From: Anaerolineae bacterium
Lineage (GTDB): Bacteria; Chloroflexota; Anaerolineae; B4-G1
NCBI GenBank assembly: GCA_030620125.1
Contig: JAUXFI010000156.1
Span: forward strand, 1 to 5,044
Reading direction: 5' to 3'
DNA: 5,044 bases
Made by a program: the position numbers and the translations under genes. Positions 2,427 to 2,592 of the stretch are shown here, piece after piece. A model generated the notes under the pieces. It saw only the letters and a list, made by a program, of their open reading frames with translations, did not search any database and was not told the DNA's origin. The first letter of the stretch is position 1. Each line of letters opens with the position of its first letter.

Positions 2427-2434
2427 GACATTCA
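2427..2434 (+). repeat. left target-site duplication GACATTCA
   Basis: GACATTCA directly abuts the left inverted repeat and recurs exactly at 2585-2592, directly abutting the right inverted repeat. This is the expected footprint of insertion with an 8-base staggered cut. Confidence 0.8.
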
Positions 2435-2464
2435 GGGTCTTTCGGATTTCGCGTGGCGCTCCAA

Positions 2465-2481
2465 GCGGACGCGCCGTCCGC
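2465..2481 (+). repeat. internal hairpin 1 of the MITE
   Basis: GCGGACG (2465-2471) and CGTCCGC (2475-2481) are a perfect 7-base stem closing a CGC triloop. It shares the pattern GGACG-NNN-CGTCC with the second hairpin 58 bases downstream. Confidence 0.75.
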
Positions 2482-2522
2482 GTCCCACTTACGGGTGCAG
2501 GGCGTAATCTAATCCCAGATAC

Positions 2523-2539
2523 GGGGACGACACGTCCCC
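2523..2539 (+). repeat. internal hairpin 2 of the MITE
   Basis: GGGGACG (2523-2529) and CGTCCCC (2533-2539) are a perfect 7-base stem closing an ACA triloop. It is followed by TCTGAGC rather than a T tract, so it is not an intrinsic terminator on the + strand. Confidence 0.75.
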
Positions 2540-2584
2540 TCTGAGCAAGTTAAAATCACCTACCACGCGAAATCCCAGAGAGCC

Positions 2585-2592
2585 GACATTCA
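2585..2592 (+). repeat. right target-site duplication GACATTCA
   Basis: Exact copy of 2427-2434, starting at the base after the right terminal inverted repeat. Confidence 0.8.

Follow-up and report, generated by a model that had tools for sequence, protein, structure and literature searches.

Two likely nested MITEs, an ISL3-type element within an older ISKra4-type one, between convergent genes of an Anaerolineae bacterium

The locus described here raises the question of whether a stretch of 150 bases, bounded by an 8-base repeat and encoding no transposase, is a mobile element and, if so, which transposase would have moved it. The window, that is, the whole 5,044-nucleotide stretch of an Anaerolineae contig that was analyzed, contains an FtsK-like gene (57-1214), an open reading frame on the forward strand (ORF 2003-2332), the holA gene for the delta subunit of DNA polymerase III on the reverse strand (2704-3726), as well as small ORFs, a DUF6391 gene and a sortase gene. 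Homologs of ORF 2003-2332 adjoin holA at four other loci (L109, L111, L112 and L113), and holA also has an FtsK-like gene in its vicinity, with some small ORFs in between, in L107, L109, L111, L112 and L113, a neighborhood that is thus conserved. Among at least 120 relatives of the HolA protein, the 5 with an organism name are assigned to Chloroflexi, Chloroflexota or Anaerolineae, in agreement with an origin of the window in this phylum. The stretch in question lies in the spacer between the convergent ORF 2003-2332 and holA, where the initial annotation recognized a single MITE. The borders of that element were placed correctly, but it is enclosed by a second MITE (2337-2434 plus 2593-2647) which had been missed. 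We consider it very probable that the 150-base element is an ISL3-moved MITE which landed inside an older 153-base MITE moved by an ISKra4-family transposase.

The inner element (2435-2584, forward strand) is, at 150 bp, too short to contain a transposase gene. It starts with the terminal inverted repeat GGGTCTTTCGGATTTCGCGTGG (2435-2456, forward strand) and ends with the inward-reading repeat GGCTCTCTGGGATTTCGCGTGG (2563-2584, reverse strand); the two 22-nt arms are complementary at 19 of 22 positions (86%) and are separated by 106 nt. Exact copies of the octamer GACATTCA directly abut the left and the right repeats (2427-2434 and 2585-2592, respectively), as the initial annotation had it. 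The same annotation described the intervening DNA as structured, and the 150 nt are indeed predicted to fold strongly, both as RNA (z = -5.9) and as DNA of the other strand (z = -5.0), with none of 200 shuffled sequences folding as well in either case. It also held that a repeat and a duplication so arranged are hard to obtain by chance. Consistently, their combined score of 27 (19 + 8) exceeds the maximum of 23 obtained when the window was shuffled 60 times with dinucleotide composition preserved, and wherever the same 60 shuffles yielded a full 8/8 duplication, the accompanying inverted repeat matched at no more than 13 of 22 positions. Because an inverted repeat alone reached up to 18/22 in a shuffle (n = 60), only the combination of repeat and duplication lies beyond chance. 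As such, it is a genuine structure.

The outer element is interrupted by the inner one and consists of a left (2337-2434) and a right part (2593-2647), both on the forward strand, which amount to 153 bases once the inner element is set aside; its ends are GGGTGYGTTTCA. The left terminal inverted repeat is GGGTGCGTTTCAAATGAGCTGG (2337-2358, forward strand), and the right one, read inward, is GGGTGTGTTTCATTTCAGTTGG (2626-2647, reverse strand). The element is flanked by the target duplication AATTGACTG (2327-2335) on the left, followed by one extra G at position 2336, and AATTGATTG (2648-2656) on the right, the two copies matching at 8 of 9 positions. The TGA stop codon (2330-2332) of ORF 2003-2332 is located within the left copy. 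The outer repeat and duplication score 23, which equals the maximum among 60 shuffles and is not, taken alone, beyond chance; the outer element is established from its relatives, described below, and not from the score in the window alone. The outer element appears to be the older of the two, as nesting requires, its duplication having decayed whereas that of the inner element is perfect. It would have inserted first, at the last codons of ORF 2003-2332, with the 9-base duplication preserving the stop codon of the ORF; the inner element would next have inserted into the outer one, duplicating GACATTCA. Both would now ride in the 3' tail of the ORF transcript, ahead of a terminator-like hairpin followed by a T run (2671-2697, forward strand; a consensus match only), which lies beyond both elements.

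An exact empty site was not found in L109, L111, L112 or L113, the spacers of which are too diverged, and the nearest HolA-bearing contig scanned (L106, 86%) stops 2 bases past the holA match. Nevertheless, the 371-base spacer shrinks to 50 bases when the 311 element bases, the extra G and one of the duplications are taken away, and L112 and L109 have element-free spacers of 45 and 127 bp, respectively, between the same gene neighbors; these are the two loci included in the spacer-length comparison (L111 and L113 were left out). The elements are dispensable at this locus in L109 and L112, because the spacers there lack them, and this argues against the possibility that the hairpins have been retained for a host function, namely, to end transcription or stabilize mRNA where two genes converge, mobility being only their history. 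The strong fold of the inner 150 nt and the position between convergent genes, before a terminator-like hairpin, would suit such a function, whereas no curated Rfam family matched anywhere in the window at E values up to 1. Overall, we regard a retained host function as unlikely.

Allowing up to three mismatches, the inner end pattern is present in 7 of the 13 genomes reached through holA, with 160 matches in G009 and 14 in G001 (versus 2 and 3, respectively, for the reversed control), and one or two matches in each of the other five positive genomes. With up to two mismatches, 24 out of 109 relatives are positive, with a maximum of 112 matches per genome (G009, 112; G033, 62; G029 and G047, 28 each; G064, 20; G020, 16) and none for the reversed control in these same genomes. 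Pairing of the ends across the fetched loci yielded 26 distinct two-ended copies, 90-180 bp long. An exact 8-base duplication abuts both ends in 12 of them, while the duplication matches at 7 of 8 positions in 6 and at 5 or fewer in 8; among lengths of up to 10 that were tested, the duplication was never longer than 8. The flanks differ among the copies of related genomes, and the multicopy ends with exact 8-base duplications uphold the original reading of the 150 bases as a MITE. Individual copies often have unlike ends (such as GGTTCTTTGGGATTTCGCATGG paired with GGCTCTCTGGTAGTTCGCCTGG in G009), and their bodies vary from genome to genome. What recurs in differing flanks is the ends; a close copy of the 150-base body was not detected. 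Of 99 genomes queried with the 311 bp of both elements, 10 matched, at the ends only (up to 7 candidates being scored for each genome), and a search of 400 genomes from the phylum with the 150 bp of the inner element retrieved a single match, of 33 bases (at most 2 candidates scored per genome among the matches listed). Given that few candidates were scored per genome in both searches, a body copy might have been overlooked.

The inner element has no match in plasmid records, nor do the outer plus inner elements in phage records. In viral contigs, one locus carries the full inner end pattern and 105 stretches carry the short pattern, with no instance of the strict two-ended pattern. Among the short-pattern viral loci that were fetched, only L001 has a TCGCGTGG partner in facing orientation no more than 400 bases away; this contig, from IMG/VR, contains a 120-bp inner-type MITE at positions 8055-8174, with no matching duplication (1/8). 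An inner-type MITE on a viral contig could serve as a route between hosts. A separate observation concerns G009, in which the inner-type bodies of L155, L159, L161 and L163 harbor an inserted REP-like palindrome (CCTTCGACTACG...CTCAGGACA) that brings three of these copies to 176-180 bp.

To which transposase do the inner ends belong? The initial annotation pointed to either an ISL3- or an IS1595-type enzyme. When the 109 relatives were searched for ISL3 transposases, 22 genomes gave a match, 5 of them over the cut-off, and 30 loci were retrieved. Inner-type ends are present at four of the six ISL3 places over the cut-off: L288, L289, L290 and L309 are ISL3 insertion sequences of 1399-1404 bp, the ends of which are identical to the nearer inner end at 17-21 of 22 positions, with an exact 8-base duplication in L288, L289 and L309 and a 5/8 one in L290. 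At the remaining two places, the ends match at only 14 of 22 positions (L287) or no end pair is recognizable (L291). The closest full-length partner, which the initial annotation had suggested seeking, is L289: the inner right repeat is identical to one end of its insertion sequence at 21 of 22 positions and the inner left repeat matches one end at 19 of 22. The L289 protein exceeds the ISL3 model cut-off of 180 with a score of 288 bits, and contains the ISL3 DDE and zinc-ribbon domains (PF01610 and PF14690). The L309 insertion sequence has one GGCTCTCTGGTAGTTCGC and one GGCTCTTTGGGATTTCGC end, resembling the MITEs of G009, and shares a sub-terminal palindrome with the MITE of L001. The ISL3 half of the earlier guess stands, because elements of about 1.4 kb with ISL3 transposases carry similar ends and mostly exact 8-base duplications, whereas the IS1595 transposase (PF12762) was absent from the four genomes searched for it (G001, G002, G004 and G009).

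By Pfam, 2 of 13 genomes are ISL3-positive, neither matching the inner ends (the G003 element has the ends GGGTCT/GGCTCT). In a sample of 301 genomes from the whole phylum, ISL3 matches occur in 98, with 41 of these over the cut-off; in 21 of 30 loci from this wider sample the best end pair starts with GGNTC(T/A), and no best end pair in the 30 exceeds 15/22 to the inner ends. No ISL3 transposase was seen in G001 or G009 despite their many inner-type copies; the parent may have been lost there or may be absent from the assemblies. The lack of this transposase in two copy-rich genomes would fit mobilization of the inner MITE by another family, for instance IS1595 or IS256, that duplicates 8 bases of the target, but given the absence of IS1595 from the four genomes searched, the restriction of IS256-type transposases (PF00872) to 2 of 10 genomes, at loci compared with the outer ends only, and the four ISL3 insertion sequences with inner-type ends, this alternative is highly improbable. 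Thus, an ISL3-family transposase likely moved the inner element, as judged from the ends and duplications.

The outer element has relatives of its own. Its right 25 bases are exactly conserved in G028 and 22-24 of them in G002, G004, G015 and G031, the right repeat being identical at 22 of 22 positions in G002, G004, G015 and G028. Allowing up to three mismatches, the outer end pattern occurs 90 times in G004, 75 in G009 and 16 in G002 (3, 7 and 3 times, respectively, when reversed), with some match in 12 of 13 genomes; low counts at this threshold represent noise, because the reversed pattern is even more frequent (11) than the end pattern itself (10) in G013. With up to two mismatches, 47 of the 109 relatives are positive (G004, 82; G009, 32; G024, 22; G047, 21; G049, 12), whereas the reversed control yields 0-1 matches in these genomes and as many as 3 in others (G018); one to three matches in a genome may therefore reflect chance. 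We identified 18 distinct outer-type copies of 66-231 bp; a 9-base duplication is exact in 13, matches at 8 of 9 positions in 2 and at 6 or fewer in 3, and in none of the 18 is it longer than 9. That the outer repeat arose by chance or is an immobile, terminator-like structure around the insertion might be suggested by its score in the window, equal to the shuffle maximum, and its imperfect duplication, but is very improbable considering that its ends match, at 21-22 of 22 positions, those of a multicopy family in relatives with exact 9-base duplications and that ends of this type also bound a full-length ISKra4 insertion sequence.

The latter insertion sequence came from a search for ISKra4 transposases in the 109 relatives, which found matches in 36 genomes, 6 of them over the cut-off, with 30 loci examined. 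L229, from G049, is a 1591-bp insertion sequence with the ends GGGTGTGTTTCATTTGAGTTAG and GGGTGTGTTTCAAATGAGTTGA, like those of the outer family; its ends match the outer left and right repeats at 19 and 20 of 22 positions, respectively, although its own duplication is only 6/9. The L229 protein scores 268 bits against the NCBIfam ISKra4 model (cut-off 205) and has no match in Pfam. Other loci from the same search (L227, L230 and L232) have other ends and exact 9-base duplications. The outer element was therefore likely moved by an ISKra4-family transposase. IS256-type transposases were also considered as its parent and rejected: in the 2 of 10 genomes in which PF00872 was found, none of the loci has outer ends. 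G049 carries both parent types, L229 (ISKra4) and L289 (ISL3, closest to the inner ends), and for this reason mobilization is testable in this genome.

The nested insertion of an ISL3-type into an ISKra4-type MITE draws together both sets of ends, both duplications, their recurrence in multiple genomes and the full-length insertion sequences of the two families with matching ends. Each transposase would have acted in trans on ends retained from a parent insertion sequence, while the interiors appear to have been swapped for unrelated hairpin-forming DNA; judging by these sequence features, both elements have probably been mobile. Counted against this reading are the absence of a body copy, the lack of ISL3 in G001 and G009, the 8 of 26 inner-type copies with weak duplications, the ends of L287 and L291, the 6/9 duplication of L229, the mismatch and the extra G of the outer duplication in the window, and the divergence of the orthologous spacers. 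It is conceivable, but rather unlikely, that the pattern is general: two unrelated transposase families, ISL3 and the Mutator-like ISKra4 group, would each run such a MITE system throughout Chloroflexota, retaining only the ends while the interiors are repeatedly swapped for unrelated hairpin-forming DNA, and the MITEs would carry new hairpins into the tails of genes as well as inserting into one another. The scan of the fetched loci found no inner-type element inside an outer-type one or the reverse, leaving the window as the sole nested example observed.

Both elements belong to known kinds (ISL3-type and ISKra4-type MITEs), of which these members are new. Neither family was found described in the literature, as represented by titles and the openings of abstracts, with subscription papers mostly outside the scope. 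The inner element resembles ISL3 insertion sequences and derived MITEs in its GGNTCT ends, with up to 21/22 identity over 22 bases, and in the 8-base duplication, but differs from the insertion sequences in being 150 bp long without a transposase gene; past the ends, its body shows no likeness by eye to the four ISL3 insertion sequences (first 60 bases from each end). The outer element resembles ISKra4 (prokaryotic Mutator-like, p-MULT 4) in its GGGTG ends, up to 20/22 to L229, and in the 9-base duplication, but lacks a transposase gene and is inserted at a stop codon between convergent genes. According to PMC3942029, Mutator-like families have inverted repeats of 18-39 bp and duplications of 8 or 9 bp, p-MULT 4 elements, the group including ISKra4, occur in Chloroflexi, and some ISKra4 members insert upstream of promoters. 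MITEAba12 is likewise reported to be non-autonomous and derived from an insertion sequence (PMC6382973), but inhabits another phylum (Acinetobacter and relatives), and here two families are nested. Our results document two abundant gene-less mobile families in mostly metagenome-assembled Chloroflexota and tie each to a parent insertion-sequence family by its ends and duplication length. As MITEs encode nothing, annotation easily misses them, yet gene tails get reshaped.

Several minor observations concern repeats in the window and in one relative. REP-like motifs are found at 1883-1897 (GAGCCTGTCGAAC) and, by eye, at 2188-2204 (TTCGACAAAGCTCAGCG), inside ORFs 1630-1992 and 2003-2332, respectively, and short tandem repeats ATCCAGTATCCAAT (4469-4503) and TGGTTAGT (4990-5035) lie inside the frame with the sortase domain (4363-5043). 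In G047, a single locus (L354) carries an inner-type and an outer-type MITE side by side, at 1220-1309 and 1410-1522, about 100 bp apart and each with an exact duplication.
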